Below, one piece after another: positions 64-46,881 of a DNA stretch of 46,881 bases. Below the pieces are notes generated by a model, which was not told the DNA's origin, searched no databases, and saw nothing but the letters and a program-made list of their open reading frames with translations. Both the position numbers and the translations under genes were made by a program. Each line of letters begins with the position of its first letter. The stretch's first letter is position 1. The DNA comes from a virus: the IMG/VR virus record IMGVR_UViG_3300033997_000067, positions 1-46,881 of that record; one strand, 5' to 3'.

Positions 64-151
64 GGAAGCGTGGCCGAGTGGTTTAAGGCAACGGTCTTGA
101 AAACCGTCGATGGGCAACTATCCTAGGGTTCGAATCCCTACGCTTCCGCCA
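64..151 (+). tRNA. tRNA-Ser(UGA), prophage integration target
   Basis: An 88-nt class II tRNA with acceptor stem GGAAGCG/CGCTTCC, anticodon TGA in the loop TTGAAAA, a long variable arm, the T-loop GGTTCGAATCC and an encoded CCA (149-151). The 5' part (64-91) lies outside the att repeat. The 3' part (92-151) is within it and is repeated at 46755-46814. The integrated phage therefore rebuilds a complete, promoter-driven gene at the left end. Confidence 0.97.
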
Positions 152-272: not shown

Positions 273-1340
273 TCATCGGGTGGGTTTTACAACCTCACCG
301 ACGCGGCGGTAAACCACCTCTGTTATGCGCTTGTCGGTATGACCGAGCAGCCTGCTTGCGTGGGCCAGGTCCTCGATTTCGCTGGCGGCCTTTGGGCGAA
401 TGTCCCGGAACTGGAAGCCCTTGATCTGCTCGGCCAGGGCTGGGTCCATGTCCTCAGTCGCCCTGTCTGCCGCTACCTTTCTCGCGTCATCCCACCGGAG
501 TCGAAGCATCGACTTTGTTACGTTGCGGCCGTCCTCTGTATTGATCAGGTAAGGGCCGCGCACGCCTCGCTCCCTACGCTGCAACAGCAGCCGCTCAAGC
601 AGCAGCGACAACTGGCTTTGTTCACCGTCAGTGGCCAGTCGTATCCGAAGCTTCTTGGCCGTCTTGCCCTGGTCGATTTGTAGGTGCCCGTCGATTACGT
701 CTGATGCCCTAGAGGCCAGTACATCGGCAGGTCGCTGACCGGTGAGGTAGGCCAGGTCCATCGCATCCTTGAGTTCGGGGACGGCGACTGCGTACACCGC
801 ATCCCAGATTGCAGGGCCAGCATAGAAGTCCCGCGGCTTCTCCTTGTTCTTGCGAACCCCGGCCGCTGGGTTGACCTGAGAAGTCACGCCCCACTCCCTT
901 GCCATGTTGAAGATGTGCGACAGCAGGGCGATTTCTCGATTTGCCCGCACCTTCCCAGTGCGCCTGTCGCGGTATTGAGCAAGCGTGTGCGGCGTGATCG
1001 CTTCGATGGGCGCGTCGCTGAAAGCCTTCCGGAGCTGCCGAAGCTCGGCCAGATTGTCCTTCTGCGTCCTGGGCTTCTTGGTTGGTATGACATCTCGCTC
1101 GTATCGATCGAAGAGATGGCTCATCAGGCGGGTGACCTTCGGCACGGCTTTGCTATCAAGCTTCGCCCATTCCACCTTTGCCACGTCCAGATCGCTCCCC
1201 AGTGGTATCTCCTTTCGGTTTCCCTCCTCATCCCTCCCGTTGTAGTAGTACCCAATCCAGACCTTTCCATTTTTCCGCTTGCGGCTGCGCCGGATCATGC
1301 GTGGCGGGAGATCCCTGTTTCCTGCTTTCTTCTGGCGCAT
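273..1340 (-). CDS. int: Tyrosine-type site-specific integrase
   Basis: A 355-residue phage integrase that catalyses attP x attB recombination at the adjacent tRNA-Ser. An N-terminal basic arm-binding region (KNGKVWIGYYYNG) is followed by a core-binding domain and a catalytic domain. The visible catalytic residues are Arg in TGQRPADVL (about residue 203), the FRDIRP motif carrying the second Arg (about 315), His334 in LLGHTDKR and the nucleophile Tyr344 in VVYRR. The gene follows the DUF4224 gene by 3 bp and reads toward attL. It is the last gene of the left operon, so it can also be expressed from PL after induction. Confidence 0.95.
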   Translation of the reverse strand: MRQKKAGNRDLPPRMIRRSRKRKNGKVWIGYYYNGRDEEGNRKEIPLGSDLDVAKVEWAKLDSKAVPKVTRLMSHLFDRYERDVIPTKKPRTQKDNLAELRQLRKAFSDAPIEAITPHTLAQYRDRRTGKVRANREIALLSHIFNMAREWGVTSQVNPAAGVRKNKEKPRDFYAGPAIWDAVYAVAVPELKDAMDLAYLTGQRPADVLASRASDVIDGHLQIDQGKTAKKLRIRLATDGEQSQLSLLLERLLLQRRERGVRGPYLINTEDGRNVTKSMLRLRWDDARKVAADRATEDMDPALAEQIKGFQFRDIRPKAASEIEDLAHASRLLGHTDKRITEVVYRRVGEVVKPTR

Positions 1341-4706: not shown

Positions 4707-4898
4707 ATGATCATCGGCGAGAAGTTCATTTTTGAGGTTGGCGATCCTGTGATCGACCAAGGCGACTCGGAGCGGCGGGTGGGGCTGGTCATTGCGATCG
4801 AGCAGGACGAGAGCGGCGAGAAGGTATTGCTTGTTGAGGCTGAGGGGAATCCAGGGCAAACATGGCGCATCTTAGATAAGGACGCGGTCTTACCCTAA
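4707..4898 (+). CDS. Small hypothetical protein on the opposite strand of the left operon
   Basis: 63 residues (MIIGEKFIFEVGDPVIDQGDSERRVG...), acidic, reading like a small beta barrel. GGAGTGAGCG precedes the ATG with good spacing. It is the only plus-strand gene inside the early-left block and its last codons overlap the end of the DpdA-like gene at 4895. It could be expressed from its own promoter in the 77-bp divergent gap at 4630-4706. Function unknown. Confidence 0.6.
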   Translation: MIIGEKFIFEVGDPVIDQGDSERRVGLVIAIEQDESGEKVLLVEAEGNPGQTWRILDKDAVLP

Positions 4899-5620
4899 AG
4901 GGCCATTTCCACTTGTTTTTCCCGAGTCCAGATCGGGGCGCTGGTGTGCGCCTCGATACGGTCGGCGATCACGCTGGCGCGCTGGCCCGCCGATGGTGGG
5001 GTGTACATACCGAACCGGCTGATGCTTCCGCCGTTGACCGCGGCGTTGGTGCTGTCGGCTGATGCCAGGGGCAGGCTCTGGAAGATTGCCGGGTCAAGCA
5101 TTCGCAGACCGTGCAGTCGGCATTGGGGGCGGCCCTGGTCATCGCAGATGGCATCCATCGCGGCGCCCATACGCTTCCACCAGGCGGCGGTGCCTGGTGA
5201 TTGCCACTGCCCGGAGCTGCCCAAGGCGACCGTTCGCCAGGCTTGCGACAGGCGCTGCAGTCGTTCTATCGACTCCTGCATGTGCCAGACCGGCACGCCC
5301 GGCAGGCGGCTAGGCCACTGCTCGAGCAAGCGGTCGTTGGCGTCTTCGTCGCCGTCGATCACGTCAGGGATCAACGCCCAGTCGAAGCCTGGGTGCCGGT
5401 GCCAGTCATCCACCCAGCGGGTGTATCCCTCGACATCGACCTGGCCGCCTTTCTTCCAGACCGTGAAAGCGCCGTTGTCCAAGACGAAGGACTGACAGGT
5501 CTCGGCTACGATACCCATGTCATCCTGCCGCGGGAACGGCACCAGGGCGTGCCGACCAGCCAGCAGCCGTGCTGCATCTTGCCGTGTGCCGCCGATGGGC
5601 GTGCCGTGGTAATGGATCAT
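4895..5620 (-). CDS. DpdA/tRNA-guanine-transglycosylase-like protein (putative)
   Basis: 241 residues. The arrangement recalls phage DpdA-type TIM-barrel proteins, relatives of tRNA-guanine transglycosylase that put 7-deazaguanines into DNA. An Asp sits in SFVLDNGAFTVWK (D48). WALIPDVIDGD (residues 81-91), VWHMQES and ALGSSGQW follow. HGLRML then SADSTNA (D189) sits where a catalytic Asp would be expected. This is recognition by motif order, not a search. No preQ0 pathway genes are visible here, so a host precursor would be needed. It is coupled (ATGA) to the next gene and lies close to a C5 methyltransferase. An alternative is a related TIM-barrel protein of other function. Confidence 0.5.
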   Translation of the reverse strand: MIHYHGTPIGGTRQDAARLLAGRHALVPFPRQDDMGIVAETCQSFVLDNGAFTVWKKGGQVDVEGYTRWVDDWHRHPGFDWALIPDVIDGDEDANDRLLEQWPSRLPGVPVWHMQESIERLQRLSQAWRTVALGSSGQWQSPGTAAWWKRMGAAMDAICDDQGRPQCRLHGLRMLDPAIFQSLPLASADSTNAAVNGGSISRFGMYTPPSAGQRASVIADRIEAHTSAPIWTREKQVEMAL

Positions 5621-6723: not shown

Positions 6724-7878
6724 CTATCGCTTCGGATAGGTTTGCGTCAGGCCGCCGTTGACCACATGGCCGCGACGCAGCGCCAAGTTGGCCAGGGCCG
6801 CCCGGTCTTTCTGGCTATGGCTGGCCTGGCCAAGCAGGCCGAAGTAGCTGTTTGCCGTCTCGCGCAGGTTCTCTGCTGGCGCTGCACCCGTTCGCTTCAA
6901 GGCCTGGGCAACCGACTTCTTGCGGGTGGTGCGCCGCCAGGGCTTTATCACATGCCCAACGAAGTCCACGCCACGGTCAATTGGCTGCAGGATGGTCTTT
7001 GAAGGGTTGAGCCTGACGCCAAGGCTCGGCAGGAAGTCTTCGATTTGCCGCAACCAATCGTTCAGCTGTTGCGGCGACTCATGCAGCAGCACGAAATCGT
7101 CGACGTAGCGGATGTAGTGCTTCGCGCCGAGCGTGTGTTTGCAGAACTTGTCCAGGGCGTCGAGGTAGACATTGGCGAAGAACTGCGACGACAGGTTTCC
7201 GATCGGCAGGCCAAGGTAAGCCGGCTGCGCGGTGAGACGCTTGTGCTGCGGCACGCGGTTGAACAGGTGAGCCGGACTGCGCTCGACGTAGTTTTCACGC
7301 GGGTCGTGCATCAGCACCTGCAGGGCCAGCTGCCTAAACCACGGATCATCGATGCGCTGTTCCAGCTGGCGCCCGAGCACGCGCTTGTCGATCGACACGA
7401 AGAAGTTGGCCAGGTCGCACTTGAGGTAGAAGCCAGGCCGCGACCAGTTCTGCGTCTGGCTGCGGATCTTCGCTTCGAGCCGCTTACCGGCGTACAGCGT
7501 GCCGCGTCCTGGGATACAGGCGCAGCTGTCCGCTATGAAGCTGCTCTCGATGCCTGGGCCGATGCGGTTGTACAGCAGGTGGTGCACGATGCGGTCGCGG
7601 AAGTCGGCGGCCCATACCTCGCGAGCCTTTGGCCGAGTGACCACAAAGCATATGGAACGGCCTGGCCGGTATTGGCCGGTGACCAGGTCGCGGTGTAGCG
7701 CCGTCAGGTTCTGCTCCAGGTTCATTTCGAAAGCCAGCGCGCTGTTGCTGTTGCGCTTCGAGCGCCGGCAATCGTAGTAAGCCTGAACCAGTTCGCTGAA
7801 CCGGTAGGGTGTCGAATCTGCGGACGGGGCGGACACGGAGCTCGTTGTTCTTGTCGTTGTTGTTCTGATTGCCATCAT
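6724..7878 (-). CDS. Reverse transcriptase of a diversity-generating retroelement
   Basis: The enzyme copies the TR RNA with errors at adenines for transfer into VR1 and VR2. The reading frame gives up to 384 residues. Seen are the catalytic Asp region FYLKCDLANFF (about 150-160), DGR motif 4 GLPIGNLSSQ (about 223-232) and YVDD (258-261). The RT homology starts near residue 25 (YRFSELVQAYYDCRRSK), so the start codon must lie inside the TR: ATG at 7878 or 7875, or GTG at 7836. None has a convincing ribosome site. No maturase or endonuclease domain is evident, as in DGR enzymes. It follows avd and TR in the order typical of Bordetella BPP-1. Confidence 0.92.
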   Translation of the reverse strand: MMAIRTTTTRTTSSVSAPSADSTPYRFSELVQAYYDCRRSKRNSNSALAFEMNLEQNLTALHRDLVTGQYRPGRSICFVVTRPKAREVWAADFRDRIVHHLLYNRIGPGIESSFIADSCACIPGRGTLYAGKRLEAKIRSQTQNWSRPGFYLKCDLANFFVSIDKRVLGRQLEQRIDDPWFRQLALQVLMHDPRENYVERSPAHLFNRVPQHKRLTAQPAYLGLPIGNLSSQFFANVYLDALDKFCKHTLGAKHYIRYVDDFVLLHESPQQLNDWLRQIEDFLPSLGVRLNPSKTILQPIDRGVDFVGHVIKPWRRTTRKKSVAQALKRTGAAPAENLRETANSYFGLLGQASHSQKDRAALANLALRRGHVVNGGLTQTYPKR

Positions 7879-7918
7879 CGAAGTTCATGTTGAATGCGTT
7901 GTTGGCTGAGCGCTGCGA
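7818..7918 (-). repeat. DGR template repeat (TR), 101 bp
   Basis: Read on the minus strand it runs from TCGCAGCGCTCAGCC to CCCGTCCGCAG. The core is strikingly rich in AAC codons; I count 32 adenines in the 101 positions. It aligns without gaps to VR1 (8506-8606) and VR2 (9181-9281). The first 15 and last 26 bases are unchanged in both VRs, while the AAC-rich centre is diversified. The last part, GAGCTC followed by a GC-rich stretch, corresponds in position to the homing signal. The 5' end of the RT frame lies within it. Confidence 0.95.
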
Positions 7919-8081
7919 CCGGTCGTGCTATCTACGTCGCCCCGGTGATCACTCATCGGGGAAACTGCGCTGGACCTACACGGACGCTTTAGACCGGCGG
8001 TATCCATGGATGCGCATGGCGGTGCTCACAGAGCAGCGGCACGACCAGATTCAATTCGCACAGGACTGAAGGCCGTGACCT
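7919..8081 (-). ncRNA. Spacer upstream of TR, probable part of the DGR template RNA
   Basis: 163 bp between avd and TR with no credible gene. A perfect 7-bp hairpin (CTGAAGG 8066-8072, CCTTCAG 8079-8085) stands at the avd stop codon. In BPP-1, RNA flanking the TR is needed for cDNA priming and for binding the RT-Avd complex, so this segment is likely to be functional RNA. That is inference from the known system. Confidence 0.45.
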
Positions 8082-8438
8082 TCAGGCAGCGGGCGCGGAT
8101 GGGGTGGAGCGCTTCCAGGCATTGGCCTGCTTCCCGATGGAGGTGGTTACCTCCATGGTGGCGGCATGCTGGGGGACGCTGATGAAGCGGCTGTCCTTGA
8201 ACAGTCGCATCAGCAGCTCAATCACCTGCACCTTCTCTACCAGGTCGATCAGGTGCGGGCGCTTGTCTCGGGCAGCATTCGCCCTGGCAATGAGCATGAG
8301 CACGTCAATGCACTCGTCGATCACCCGGCGCCCAAGCGACTGTTTCAGCTCGCGAGGTATATTGCGGGTGAGGTTGGTCGCCATCTGCAACAGGCCGCTG
8401 GCGGCTTTGTAGATGGACAGATCGGTGTGCATTGCCAT
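8082..8438 (-). CDS. avd: Avd-like DGR accessory protein
   Basis: 118 residues, nearly all helical (YKAASGLLQMATNLTRNIPRELKQSLGRRVIDECIDVLMLIARANAA), with the four-helix-bundle look of Avd and related bacterial 23S-intervening-sequence proteins. Avd forms a pentamer that binds the RT and the template RNA and is required for cDNA synthesis. The surface is basic, fitting nucleic-acid binding. The start at 8438 has AAGGAGG about 8 bp upstream. It sits between the VR1 target and the TR, the classical avd position. Confidence 0.85.
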   Translation of the reverse strand: MAMHTDLSIYKAASGLLQMATNLTRNIPRELKQSLGRRVIDECIDVLMLIARANAARDKRPHLIDLVEKVQVIELLMRLFKDSRFISVPQHAATMEVTTSIGKQANAWKRSTPSAPAA

Positions 8439-8459
8439 GTCATGCCCCTCCTTGGGCTG

Positions 8460-8476
8460 CCGCCCGTGCCGGGCGG
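8460..8476. promoter_or_regulatory. Hairpin downstream of VR1
   Basis: CCGCCCG (8460-8466) pairs with CGGGCGG (8470-8476) around a 3-nt loop. It lies between the VR1 target gene and avd, 29 bp past the end of VR1. There is no T run on either strand, so it is not an ordinary terminator. In BPP-1 a DNA hairpin or cruciform just downstream of VR increases homing; this one is a candidate equivalent. Confidence 0.45.
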
Positions 8477-8479
8477 TTA

Positions 8480-8489
8480 AATGAATGAA
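8480..8489 (-). promoter_or_regulatory. VR-flank element copy 1
   Basis: AATGAATGAA on the plus strand (TTCATTCATT on the coding strand), separated by 16 bp from the 3' end of VR1. The same 10 bases occur at the same distance from VR2 and are absent beside the TR. It may belong to the target-side homing signal. Confidence 0.4.
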
Positions 8490-9098
8490 TTACTGAATGA
8501 TCTCGCTGCGGACGGGGCGGACACGGAGCTCGCTGCCCTTGCCGTAGCAGTTCTGATCGCCATCAACGAAGTACATGAAGAACGCGCTGTAGGCTGAGCG
8601 CTGCGAAGATGACCAGTACGCAGCATCGCGGAACGCCTCGGGACCGCCTTCACGGAATGCCTCGTGTGCCGTCTGGGCTGGATCTTCTTCGGTGTACAGC
8701 AGGCCGACCGGCTCGCTGTTGGGGTTGTCGCCGCTGCGGGCGTATTGCCAGTTTTCTTCGGTGGTCGGCTTGAAGTGTCGGTATTGGAGTTCCTGAACGT
8801 CACGTGCAGGGATCGCCCAGTCGCTGTAGCCGCCAATAGCCAGGGCCAGGACCTGTTTGGCGAGCTCGCTACCAGTGGAAGCCATGGCTTCGGTGTTGGC
8901 TCGGCTGTTCGTGAAGCTGTCGGCGCCCTCAATCTTGACGCCGTACTCGCCCCAGGCGCCCACCAGCTCATGCTCAGCTCCGGCAGTGATGTGCAGGCAG
9001 CGCACACCGGTATCAGGGTCGCGGGTGATGCCGGTGACAAAGCCGCCGCCGTAGGCCTGGCCGATTGCTGGAGTTTCTGCTTTTTCAACTGCGCTCAT
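8490..9098 (-). CDS. DGR variable protein 1, C-type-lectin-like fold
   Basis: 202 residues, from ATG at 9098 with AAGGAG 6 bp upstream. The C-terminal domain (about 115-200) has the hallmark YWSSSQRSA...FVDG...LRVRPVRS of DUF1566/FGE-type C-lectin folds used as DGR ligand-binding domains. The diversified residues lie at about 170-189. The N-terminal region GGFVTGITRDPDTGVRCLHITAGAEHELVGAWGEYGV has a counterpart in variable protein 2. No signal peptide, tail-fibre repeat or membrane anchor is seen. It is on the early strand, so assembly into the virion is not evident. Its ligand is unknown. Confidence 0.9.
   Translation of the reverse strand: MSAVEKAETPAIGQAYGGGFVTGITRDPDTGVRCLHITAGAEHELVGAWGEYGVKIEGADSFTNSRANTEAMASTGSELAKQVLALAIGGYSDWAIPARDVQELQYRHFKPTTEENWQYARSGDNPNSEPVGLLYTEEDPAQTAHEAFREGGPEAFRDAAYWSSSQRSAYSAFFMYFVDGDQNCYGKGSELRVRPVRSEIIQ
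8506..8606 (-). repeat. DGR variable repeat 1 (VR1), 101 bp
   Basis: Gap-free match to the TR with 15 substitutions, all at TR adenines by hand alignment. Examples are AAC to TAC, AGC, TTC, TGC and GGC; GAT to GTT; and AAT to GAT. One change (GCA to GCG) is silent. Invariant TR positions include ATG, GGC and CAG. The pattern is the signature of adenine-specific mutagenic retrohoming. Confidence 0.95.
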
Positions 9099-9124
9099 GT
9101 GCTGCTCCTTGACGTGCAGGCAAC

Positions 9125-9144
9125 AAAAAAGGCGCTGCTGCGCC
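9125..9144 (-). terminator. Rho-independent terminator between the two DGR target genes
   Basis: On the minus strand, GGCGC-AGCA-GCGCC (9144-9131) can be extended by G-T pairs and is followed by TTTTTT (9130-9125). It comes after the variable protein 2 gene and before variable protein 1. It should reduce read-through into VR1, avd and RT unless antitermination operates. It may also act as the VR2-side hairpin. Confidence 0.65.
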
Positions 9145-9154
9145 CCTGTGTTCG

Positions 9155-9164
9155 AATGAATGAA
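9155..9164 (-). promoter_or_regulatory. VR-flank element copy 2
   Basis: AATGAATGAA on the plus strand, 16 bp from the 3' end of VR2, exactly as beside VR1. Nearby bases are also partly conserved (AATGA at 8496-8500 and 9171-9175), so homology of the two target genes extends past their stop codons. Confidence 0.4.
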
Positions 9165-9167
9165 GGA

Positions 9168-9749
9168 TTAAATGAAGTATCTGCGGACGGGGCGGACACG
9201 GAGCTCGTAGTACTCGTCGCCGTAGTACTGAAGGCCATCACCGAAGTGCATGAGGAATGCGAAGTCGGCTGAGCGCTGCGAGCTGCTCCAGTAGGCGCCT
9301 TCCTTGATCAGGTTGTGCATCCAGGCTTGGTAAAGCTGTGAGGCCGCCGGAAGGTCGAAGTCGGAATGACCTTCGTTTTGGTATGCCCTGGCCGCCTCAG
9401 CAGCAGGGTGGCCGCCCTCGGAAATCAGTGCATCAGTGTTCGCCTTGCCGTCATGGCGACTGGTTGCCTTCGACTCCTGATTGCGGCCGCCCCATTCATG
9501 CTCGCCTACATCCTCATGAGCAAAGATCAGGTAGTGCGCCTGCACGTCGCCGATTGCTGGAACAAATCCGCCGTTGATGCCGCCTTGGCCGGGCCATGGC
9601 TGGCCTATCGGCGGCGCGACGATCACCGGCTGATTGCTTGCAGGCGCCAGTTGAGCCAGGGCACTTACCAGAGCGAGCTCAGCAAGCTTTGGCCGCGCCA
9701 TCTTGAACTTCAGGCCGTTATGCTCCAGCTTGACCATTTCGGATTTCAT
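9168..9749 (-). CDS. DGR variable protein 2, C-type-lectin-like fold
   Basis: 193 residues, from ATG at 9749 with GGAG 7 bp upstream. The C-terminus YWSSSQRSADFAFLMHFGDG...LRVRPVRR is the variable lectin-like domain. The N-terminus (about 1-50) is basic and Pro/Ala-rich and differs from protein 1. The middle (GGINGGFVPAIGDVQAHYLIFAHEDVGEHEWGG) aligns with protein 1 in pattern. The two genes look like diverged paralogues that share one template. It is read from the left operon. No secretion signal is visible. Confidence 0.9.
   Translation of the reverse strand: MKSEMVKLEHNGLKFKMARPKLAELALVSALAQLAPASNQPVIVAPPIGQPWPGQGGINGGFVPAIGDVQAHYLIFAHEDVGEHEWGGRNQESKATSRHDGKANTDALISEGGHPAAEAARAYQNEGHSDFDLPAASQLYQAWMHNLIKEGAYWSSSQRSADFAFLMHFGDGLQYYGDEYYELRVRPVRRYFI
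9181..9281 (-). repeat. DGR variable repeat 2 (VR2), 101 bp
   Basis: Gap-free match to the TR with 16 substitutions, all at TR adenines by hand alignment. Examples are AAC to GAC, TTC, CTC, CAC, TAC and GGC; AAT to CTT; and AAG to GAG. VR1 and VR2 were diversified independently: most shared variable codons carry different outcomes. Confidence 0.95.
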
Positions 9750-16893: not shown

Positions 16894-17751
16894 TCAAAGA
16901 TCTCCACCGCGCCAGATCACTTTCCCTATGATTCTGTGCTCGTTCGCATCATCAGTAGTAAGCATCCGATCTGGATGGGCTTCTTTGTTTCCGTTGTCGC
17001 TGCGGATGATCCAGGCGCCCCGGGTTGACTTCACCAGACGCTTCACGATCGCCGTTTCACCGTGGGTTAGCACGAATACTTGGCCGTCTGCTGGCTCGAT
17101 CTTGGACTGGTCGACCAGAAGTACGTCTCGATCGTTTATTGTCGGCCACATGCTTTCACCATCCGCATAGATCACCAGCAGCTTCTCTGGCTTTACGCGT
17201 TTGACCTTCAGCCATTCGCGCTTGAAGGCGAGGGTGGCCCTGATCTCAACGTGCGGATTTTCGACCCCAAGCCCTGCAGCTGCCTTTGCGTCGTATTGAG
17301 GGATGTAGGCGTATCGATCATCTAAGGCATCGTCTGACTCCGCCCCATTAGGCAGTGGCGTGTTTGCAGCTTCCTTGTTGGCGGAATATCGATGGGGCTC
17401 TTCCTGCACTGCATCCGCCGCCTTGCCATCTGGATACTCGAGCCGACCATATTCTGTGAACGGAAGGTCTACCCGCATTTCATCGTACTGCTTGGCGATG
17501 GTTGGGCTGAATTCTGCGATTGGAACCTGCAGCATCCTCGCGAACACCACTGCAGCCTTGAGGCTCAAGGCGGTTCTACCATTCATGAAGTGGCTAACGG
17601 CGCCCTGCGTGACGCCATCACCAAGCTCGTTTGCGATCTTTTCCTGCGTGAGGTTTAGCGCCGCGCGCTTGCCCTGGAAAATCTCTTTCAGCCGGCGGCT
17701 GTCTTCGATCTGCCAGTCAGTAAGGGGGAGCTTTCTAGAGTTCTTCGTCAT
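16894..17751 (-). CDS. cI: CI-type phage repressor with S24 peptidase domain
   Basis: 285 residues, keeping the lysogenic state by binding the OL and OR sites. The N-terminal XRE helix-turn-helix spans about 18-78 (LNLTQEKIANELGDGVTQGAVSHFMNGRTALSL). A linker carries the autocleavage site Ala159-Gly160 (AAAGLGV). The LexA-like peptidase has Ser200 (DGESMWP) and Lys237 (ETAIVKRLV). RecA-stimulated self-cleavage is therefore expected. The start has no Shine-Dalgarno and the predicted PRM start is only a few bases upstream, so the message is probably near-leaderless, as lambda cI is from PRM. Confidence 0.95.
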   Translation of the reverse strand: MTKNSRKLPLTDWQIEDSRRLKEIFQGKRAALNLTQEKIANELGDGVTQGAVSHFMNGRTALSLKAAVVFARMLQVPIAEFSPTIAKQYDEMRVDLPFTEYGRLEYPDGKAADAVQEEPHRYSANKEAANTPLPNGAESDDALDDRYAYIPQYDAKAAAGLGVENPHVEIRATLAFKREWLKVKRVKPEKLLVIYADGESMWPTINDRDVLLVDQSKIEPADGQVFVLTHGETAIVKRLVKSTRGAWIIRSDNGNKEAHPDRMLTTDDANEHRIIGKVIWRGGDL

Positions 17752-18880: not shown

Positions 18881-18967
18881 GTCCGGCCTCCTTGGACCTT
18901 TTGAGTGGAATCAAAAAGCTACCACGGATGCGCCGGACACCCAATGCATCACCGCAACACCAAATCG

Positions 18968-19006
18968 CAGAGACAAAAAAGCCGGGTTCGCGGCCCGGCT
19001 CTCTGC
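18968..19006. terminator. Long bulged hairpin upstream of rha, terminator on the minus strand
   Basis: AGCCGGG (18980-18986) pairs with CCCGGCT (18994-19000). GCAGAG (18968-18973) can also pair with CTCTGC (19001-19006), leaving an A-rich bulge. On the minus strand the inner stem is followed by TTTTTT, a good rho-independent terminator that would block antisense reading from the replication region. Confidence 0.55.
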
Positions 19007-19036
19007 ATAACAAAACTCTGTTCAGGAATCTTACCT

Positions 19037-19840
19037 ATGCAGAACCAAAGTGTACAGGCCCTGATGCGGCACGCGCCACAAAATGCGGTCCACGATTCTG
19101 TGGCGCGCACGATGTCGTCGCGTGAAATCGCCAGTTTGACTGGCAAGCGTCACGACAACGTGAAGCGTGACGTCGTGGCCATGCTCAAAGACCTCAAGGT
19201 CGATCCCCTCAATTTTGAGGACATCTACCTGGACGGGCGGAATCGTGAGCAAGTGCAGTATCTGCTCGATCGTGAGCATACCGACTGCCTGTTAACGGGC
19301 TATAGCCCGGCCCTGCGCATGAAGGTAATCCGACGCTGGCGTGAACTTGAAGGCCAGTCCGAGGCGCGCCAGGCAGTCATGGCCAATGGCACCAAGGTGA
19401 TCGGCGAGATTGCCATCATGGAGTGCTTCACGCGCCTGCTTAAGCCTGCTGCGTCGTGCCAGATGCAGATGCTCACAAAGATCGCCGAGAACAACGGCCT
19501 CGATCCGAAATTTCTGCCTGGCTATGCCGTGGATGCTCCGCCAGATGCAGTAGGGGGCAGCTCGCTGCCAACCAAAGCACTGACCGCGCTGCTCAAGGAT
19601 AACGGCATCCGCATGTCACCTGCATCGTTCAACAAGGCCTTGCAGCAGGCCGGCGTGCTCAAGGTCATGCAGCGCAAGAACTCCAAGCAGGAGACGGTCA
19701 CGTTCTGGGCAATCACTGACAAGGGGCTGCGCTATGGCAAGAACCTGACCAGCCCTCAATGTCCCCGCGAAACCCAGCCGCACTGGTACGTGGATCGCTT
19801 CCCTGAACTGGCCGAGATGGTCAGGAAGGGGCGCCCATGA
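19037..19840 (+). CDS. rha: Rha family phage regulatory protein with antirepressor-type C-terminus
   Basis: 267 residues from ATG at 19037 (MQNQSVQALMRHAPQNAVHDSVARTMSSREIASLTGKRHDNVKRDVVAML). The N-terminal domain fits Rha, and PALRMKVIRRWRELE is its conserved end. The C-terminal half (SSLPTKALTALLKDNGIRMSPASFNKALQQAGVLKVMQRKN...FWAITDKGLRYGKNL) looks like the DNA-binding tail of phage antirepressors. The 5' coding region holds an inverted repeat also found upstream of terS. Frames further upstream (18905) have no ribosome site. Confidence 0.82.
   Translation: MQNQSVQALMRHAPQNAVHDSVARTMSSREIASLTGKRHDNVKRDVVAMLKDLKVDPLNFEDIYLDGRNREQVQYLLDREHTDCLLTGYSPALRMKVIRRWRELEGQSEARQAVMANGTKVIGEIAIMECFTRLLKPAASCQMQMLTKIAENNGLDPKFLPGYAVDAPPDAVGGSSLPTKALTALLKDNGIRMSPASFNKALQQAGVLKVMQRKNSKQETVTFWAITDKGLRYGKNLTSPQCPRETQPHWYVDRFPELAEMVRKGRP
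19072..19107. repeat. Inverted repeat copy A, inside the rha start
   Basis: CGCGCCAC (19072-19079) and GTGGCGCG (19100-19107) form 8-bp arms. Inner bases AAAAT and ATTCT nearly extend the pairing. A closely similar element is at 25207-25241. Confidence 0.6.
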
Positions 19841-46754: not shown

Positions 46755-46881
46755 CGGTCTTGAAAACCGTCGATGGGCAACTATCCTAGGGTTCGAATCC
46801 CTACGCTTCCGCCATCTTTAAAGCCCCTGAATACGGGGCTTTTTGTGTTTCTGGGGTATGCGTTTACGCCGTTTGATTCGG
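46755..46881. repeat. Right att copy with partial tRNA-Ser
   Basis: Identical to 92-218. It carries the 60-nt 3' part of the tRNA (46755-46814) and the terminator (46820-46846) but no tRNA 5' half or promoter, so it is not a functional gene. The window ends within or at the end of the repeat. Confidence 0.9.

Follow-up and report, generated by a model that had tools for sequence, protein, structure and literature searches.

An RT-15 RNA beside the template repeat of a two-target prophage diversity-generating retroelement and a possible 5′-side layout of the template RNA

Introduction

To our knowledge, the priming of cDNA in diversity-generating retroelements (DGRs) is known in detail solely from BPP-1, whose cassette has the order mtd-avd-TR-Sp-brt: one target, located in the tail module, an accessory variability determinant (Avd) gene that abuts the template repeat (TR), and a 144-nt structured spacer (Sp; Rfam Phage_DGR) between the TR and the reverse transcriptase (RT) gene. 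An internal adenine of the spacer has a priming role (PMC12875486), and a hairpin is required for target recognition (PMC3240598). Retrons, organized as msr-msd-RT with priming from a guanosine (PMC8867640), carry a structured RNA 5′ of the template, a 5′ segment of which (a1) pairs with the template 3′ end (a2) beside the priming nucleotide. DGRs with multiple variable repeats (VRs) are already known (PMC3521204, PMC6642488) and accounted for 28.6% of the 948 DGRs that one published survey covered (PMC6642488). Cassettes in which one TR serves at least two targets with DUF1566 or C-lectin folds have been described for the Bacuni phages (PMC8143477), the nd4/nd12 tentaclin phages (PMC10743442) and the DiGReF multi-VR set (PMC3521204).

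Here, we analyze a cassette found in a 46,881-nt stretch of viral DNA (positions 1 to 46,881 of IMG/VR record IMGVR_UViG_3300033997_000067), referred to as the window, together with its relatives. Like BPP-1, it combines adenine-specific TR-to-VR transfer, an RT of the same class and an Avd with a C-type-lectin-fold target whose VR lies at its 3′ end, hairpins that follow the VRs and the order target-avd-TR-RT. In contrast to BPP-1, the targets lie in the early region, avd and TR are 163 nt apart with the structured RNA RT-15 in between, and the RT gene follows the TR without a spacer. The comparison suggests that this lineage may prime its cDNA from the 5′ side of the template.

Results

A single template for two targets diversified separately

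The cassette is a diversity-generating retroelement, a known kind (Table 1). Three gap-free 101-nt copies, all on the minus strand, were recovered exactly where a sequence-only reading of the window had placed them, in the gene order target-target-avd-TR-RT that it had given. Realignment yielded no difference between TR and VR outside adenines: 31/31 mismatches (15/15 in VR1 and 16/16 in VR2) fall on TR adenines, with eight A-to-G and seven A-to-T changes in VR1, and eight changes to T, five to G and three to C in VR2. Given 32 adenines in 101 positions, the hypergeometric chance of this is 1.9e-9 for VR1 and 3.8e-10 for VR2. The codons that differ from the TR number 11/33 in VR1 and 12/33 in VR2. 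The two VRs differ from each other at 19 positions, every one a TR adenine. The earlier proposal of one template feeding two independently diversified targets is supported. An independent scan of the whole 46.9-kb window on both strands recovered the same two VRs and no third.

Table 1. Features of the cassette and of the surrounding prophage (coordinates in the window)
Feature	Position	Strand	Description
tRNA-Ser(TGA)	64-151		Part repeated, at least 40 bp identical, at ~46755-46881
Integrase	273-1340		Beside the tRNA-Ser repeat
RT ORF	6724..7878	(-)	384 aa as called; conserved domain from ~7800; Pfam RVT_1, phrog_1423
a2 (predicted)	7812..7820	(-)	TR 3′ boundary and flank, RNA 5′-CAGAUUCGA-3′, pairs with a1; RNAalifold, covariation
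TR	7818..7918	(-)	32 adenines; overlaps RT 5′ end; alignment and scan
RT-15 structured RNA (Rfam RF03018)	7916..8098	(-)	Directly 5′ of TR, overlaps avd 3′ end; cmscan
Predicted priming region	8045 onward	(-)	Conserved GUCG, directly after a1
a1 (predicted)	8046..8054	(-)	RT-15 linker, RNA 5′-UUGAAUCUG-3′, proposed primer strand; RNAalifold, covariation
avd	8082..8438	(-)	Accessory variability determinant; Pfam bAvd 47.8 bits (cut-off 40); phrog_3206
Hairpin after VR1	8460..8476	(-)	GC-rich, 7 bp, downstream of VR1
Target 1 (T1)	8490..9098	(-)	202 aa, Lcl_C/C-type lectin fold, 'GGGF' clade; Pfam Lcl_C E 1.5e-7, slightly under the family cut-off
VR1	8506..8606	(-)	15/15 differences at TR adenines
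Hairpin after VR2	9131..9144	(-)	GC-rich, 5 bp (GGCGC-AGCA-GCGCC), then T6, downstream of VR2
Target 2 (T2)	9168..9749	(-)	193 aa, Lcl_C/C-type lectin fold, 'GQGG' clade; Pfam Lcl_C E 7e-4
VR2	9181..9281	(-)	16/16 differences at TR adenines

The motifs IGNLSSQ and YVDD, on which the RT had been recognized, are both present in its translation. Its nearest solved structure is the BPP-1 DGR RT (E 4e-37; best group II intron RT, 3e-10), it is 31% identical to BPP-1 brt, and it reaches 43 bits with the retron St85 RT model, for which the cut-off is 235. By these pairwise and profile scores, used here rather than a reference tree, the RT is not nearest to retrons or group II introns. The gene described as Avd-like is indeed an avd by Pfam bAvd, the cut-off of which it passes; it also matches NCBIfam DivGenRetAVD, yet below the family cut-off, and pairwise BLAST against the BPP-1 Avd found no similarity. 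The RT reading frame opens inside the TR, with its ATG at 7878, so that the TR portion at 7818-7878 encodes the RT N terminus in a second frame; the conserved RT domain begins 17 nt past the TR end. The window shares with nearly all relatives an RT frame that stays open across part of the TR, and in some relatives the RT ATG is located only downstream of the TR.

AlphaFold models of T1 (pLDDT 93) and T2 (pLDDT 87) both have the C-terminal domain of Legionella Lcl as their top PDB match (E 4e-6 for T2), placing each VR at the C-terminal end of a C-type-lectin-fold protein. The sequence-only reading had considered such a two-target cassette less common, which proved wrong, as two targets are the rule in this RT lineage. 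Among 74 loci with a detected TR, the window counted, targets occupy both positions in 57, and 10 more carry a third, distant target; at least two VRs lie within 3.5 kb in 91/119 loci from two further searches and in 68 of the 80 bacterial-genome loci. A tree of the non-variable target parts separates two clades with 100% support, and the target pair contains one member of each in 64/66 loci, with the order of the clades swapped in about half. Recent duplication of one target is ruled out by these two fully supported clades, which are paired across phages. The long-kept heterotypic pairing suggests that the two proteins may be partners or have complementary roles. The two targets of tentaclin phages have different topologies, whereas those described here represent two ancient paralogous clades that change places between phages. 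In five loci (L026, L029, L037, L044 and L053), the same TR also serves a third, free-standing Lcl_C target, which carries its own VR and lies ~3.6-7 kb upstream of the RT. Short DGR-target-like VR matches were also seen in L089 (PA5oct) and L090 (FBPa19), with neither an RT nor an avd annotated nearby, and are possible orphan targets.

Recent activity in related cassettes

Where two related cassettes have identical or nearly identical target scaffolds, their VRs vary almost only at TR adenines. Slot A of L007 and L019 has identical scaffolds (0/459 different), and the VRs differ at 12/28 TR-A sites and 0/76 other sites; in slot B of L079 and L081, the corresponding values are 0/496, 18/29 and 1/71, and in slot A of the same two loci 4/505, 13/29 and 0/71. 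Over 50 locus pairs, VRs differ at 654/1505 TR-A positions versus 10/3488 non-A positions, and the TRs at 93/5086. Near-identical target scaffolds with VRs that diverge in this manner point to an active lineage, in which recent and separate diversification of both targets is strongly indicated by the sequences of the relatives rather than by the window phage.

Hairpins of at least 6 bp follow 87/152 VRs, compared to 7 expected, an excess that agrees with the target-recognition hairpin of BPP-1 (PMC3240598). The survey had a minimum stem of 6 bp, a limit under which the VR2 hairpin of the window falls with its 5-bp stem. A GRNA tetraloop as in BPP-1 is not general after VRs, being found at 4/152.

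An early-region cassette in a complete prophage

The direct repeat of at least 40 bp shared by the tRNA-Ser gene and the far end of the window, together with the adjacent integrase, indicates a complete temperate prophage integrated in tRNA-Ser, with its attachment sites. The cassette lies in the left early region, on the cI-to-integrase side, in the company of ssb, a YqaJ/RecE-like exonuclease, Erf and a cytosine methylase, and outside the sheath-tail module at ~34-45 kb. It likewise occupies the early region in phages Haboob, Cruim01, phPA-G and Magia, and for Magia, the annotators had already suggested that lectin-fold proteins of this region could be targets of a DGR. A further target in the tail module was rejected: in the window, the A2 profile has no matches beyond T1, T2 and the TR, and in 16 relatives it finds just the cassette and, for some of them, one additional copy at a distance of some kb. 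Since target-profile matches in 17 phage records are confined in this way, apart from the extra copies, the targets look like early or accessory proteins. Elsewhere in the window, positions 4895-5620 match the phage queuine tRNA-ribosyltransferase family phrog_887, possibly a DNA or tRNA modification gene, and an Ant-like anti-repressor (18905-19840) lies beyond a cI-like repressor (16894-17751).

RT-15 RNA at the 5′ end of the template repeat

The gap between avd and TR, overlooked in the sequence-only reading, is occupied by RT-15, matched over its full length with a cmscan score of 159.9 bits (gathering score 82). RT-15 is located at the TR 5′ end in the window and in 20/20 non-BPP-1 loci scanned; its 3′ motif stands 17-19 nt ahead of the TR in 65/66 loci, and the TR-to-RT gap is variable. 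Phage_DGR (Rfam RF03022) is absent from the window, which has no structured spacer of this type between TR and RT, and from every RT-15 locus scanned; the BPP-1 control carries Phage_DGR RNA 3′ of the TR and no RT-15. The folding energy of the RNA in the window is not below that of shuffled sequence (z -0.28); whole-RNA energy is uninformative. No tie of RT-15 to a DGR template was found in the accessible literature, outside of which lies the original description (10.1093/nar/gkx699).

A covarying helix between RT-15 and the template 3′ boundary

RNAalifold on 70 relatives proposed a helix between the RT-15 linker (a1) and the TR 3′ boundary (a2). Pair probabilities for the helix were 0.53-0.96. 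The Rfam RF03018 model stops at the TR and hence lacks a2, leaving a1 as unpaired. We retested the helix alignment-free, by fixed anchors, which determine the first three pairs; these were therefore excluded from all statistics. Flank position 6, the most variable, pairs in 72/73 unique combinations from 173 loci, by means of G-C (34), C-G (23), A-U (6), U-G (5) and U-A (4). Across these 73 combinations, flank positions 3-8 pair in 86% of cases versus 6-62% when slid by 1-3 nt, and 0/5000 permutations reach the observed pairing. The result repeats in more divergent loci: for 55 combinations from bacterial genomes, position 6 pairs in 52/55 and overall pairing is 80%, compared to a permutation maximum of 72%, with the reservation that the viral and bacterial sets overlap (e.g., L058 and L238 appear to be a single contig) and are not fully independent. 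On an RT tree with 67 tips, counted on the merged, deduplicated locus set, position 6 changes 12 times in a1, 14 times in a2 and 16 times jointly; ~10 changes are shared, where the counts of changes and of branches predict ~1. VR flanks pair with a1 far less than a2 does (0.47 vs 0.80, p 1e-11).

In some lineages, the predicted helix is short and has interruptions: flank position 5 often lacks a pair, through an A.C mismatch or otherwise, as it does in 45% of the 55 bacterial-genome combinations, and L062-type loci have an A.A mismatch. Helices that RNAalifold placed within the TR were discounted for their many broken pairs and the descent shared by the TRs. By these comparisons of sequences, the a1/a2 helix itself is well supported, and its role in priming is putative.

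Discussion

We consider it likely that the window carries an active-type DGR whose template RNA consists of RT-15 followed by the TR, is clamped by a1/a2 and probably has its cDNA primed from the 5′ side. An RT-Avd complex would reverse-transcribe the single TR RNA, making errors where the template has adenines, and the resulting cDNA would replace the variable repeat of either free-standing C-type-lectin-fold protein. In the predicted structure, a1 is followed directly by the closing helix of RT-15, P1, the other strand of which would end just ahead of the TR; with a1 in the RT-15 linker paired to a2 beside P1, RT-15 would hold both TR ends. The polarity of a1 would be that of a primer, with its 3′ end pointing into the TR. 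In the most likely scheme, cDNA synthesis would start at the TR 3′ end from a 2′-OH just 3′ of a1, in the conserved GUCG, and would stop at P1, at the TR 5′ end, such that both template ends would be defined by RT-15, with a1/a2 as the site of initiation and P1 as that of termination. The priming residue and the part of RT-15 in recruiting RT-Avd are inferred, as is the role of the targets.

But could this be an ordinary BPP-1-type DGR that conceals its functional spacer within RT coding sequence on the 3′ side of the TR, with RT-15 acting upstream only in an accessory or processing capacity? In the DGR that has been studied best, cDNA is primed from a 3′ spacer (PMC12875486), and a conserved 5′ RNA could serve other roles. 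However, the RT 5′ end has no synonymous-site constraint, so that a hidden 3′ spacer is unsupported and was rejected as a candidate; together with the missing Phage_DGR matches and an a1/a2 helix that is tied to the TR end rather than to the RT start, this makes such an arrangement unlikely. RT-15 and a1/a2 might also regulate RT translation as an attenuator-like leader, a reading that draws on the proximity of the helix to the RT start: a2 falls where the RT gene begins, and the TR contains the RT start codon and leaves the RT frame open over part of its length. Yet what stays fixed is the spacing between RT-15 and TR and the placement of a2 at the TR end, whereas the distance from a2 to the RT varies by tens of nt and some lineages start the RT downstream of a2; we regard regulation of this kind as decidedly unlikely, and attenuation and priming could coexist. 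That the complementarity is an artefact of inheritance, a functionless pairing carried along in related sequences, has to be weighed because most loci are related and relatedness survives simple permutations. It is very improbable in view of the RT tree, where ~10 changes coincide and ~1 would be expected, the four a1-side nucleotides that are each matched by their partner, the repetition of the result in the more divergent set, and the failure of slid registers and VR flanks.

How would priming from the 5′ side relate to the described systems? On balance, we favor the view that DGRs have two RNA layouts and that, in the RT-15 lineage, a 5′ RNA that recruits the RT and primes cDNA clamps the TR ends, the retron-style priming being a permuted version of the BPP-1 spacer mechanism. 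In the BPP-1 control, the Sp segment just 5′ of the priming adenine A56 is complementary to the TR 3′ end; the RT-15 layout would thus follow the logic of BPP-1 with the primer RNA shifted to the 5′ side. The likeness to retrons lies in a structured RNA 5′ of the template and in the a1/a2 topology, in which, by covariation, a 5′ segment pairs with the template 3′ end beside the proposed priming nucleotide. Unlike in retrons, the RT is DGR-like, the product would introduce mutations as it homes into genes, and an Avd is present, and we regard the resemblance as an analogy of topology, not of descent. The RNA layout is likely the new part, whereas the two-target cassette is ordinary for the lineage.

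A compact template RNA without a 3′ spacer could be of use for protein-diversification tools. The location of the targets in the early region rather than among tail genes raises the question of what a temperate phage gains by hypermutating non-tail lectin-fold proteins. The orphan Rfam RNA RT-15 gains a missing helix and, if the reading of 5′ priming is true, a candidate function, and the two layouts of DGR template RNA that are suggested here would bear on how DGR cDNA is primed.
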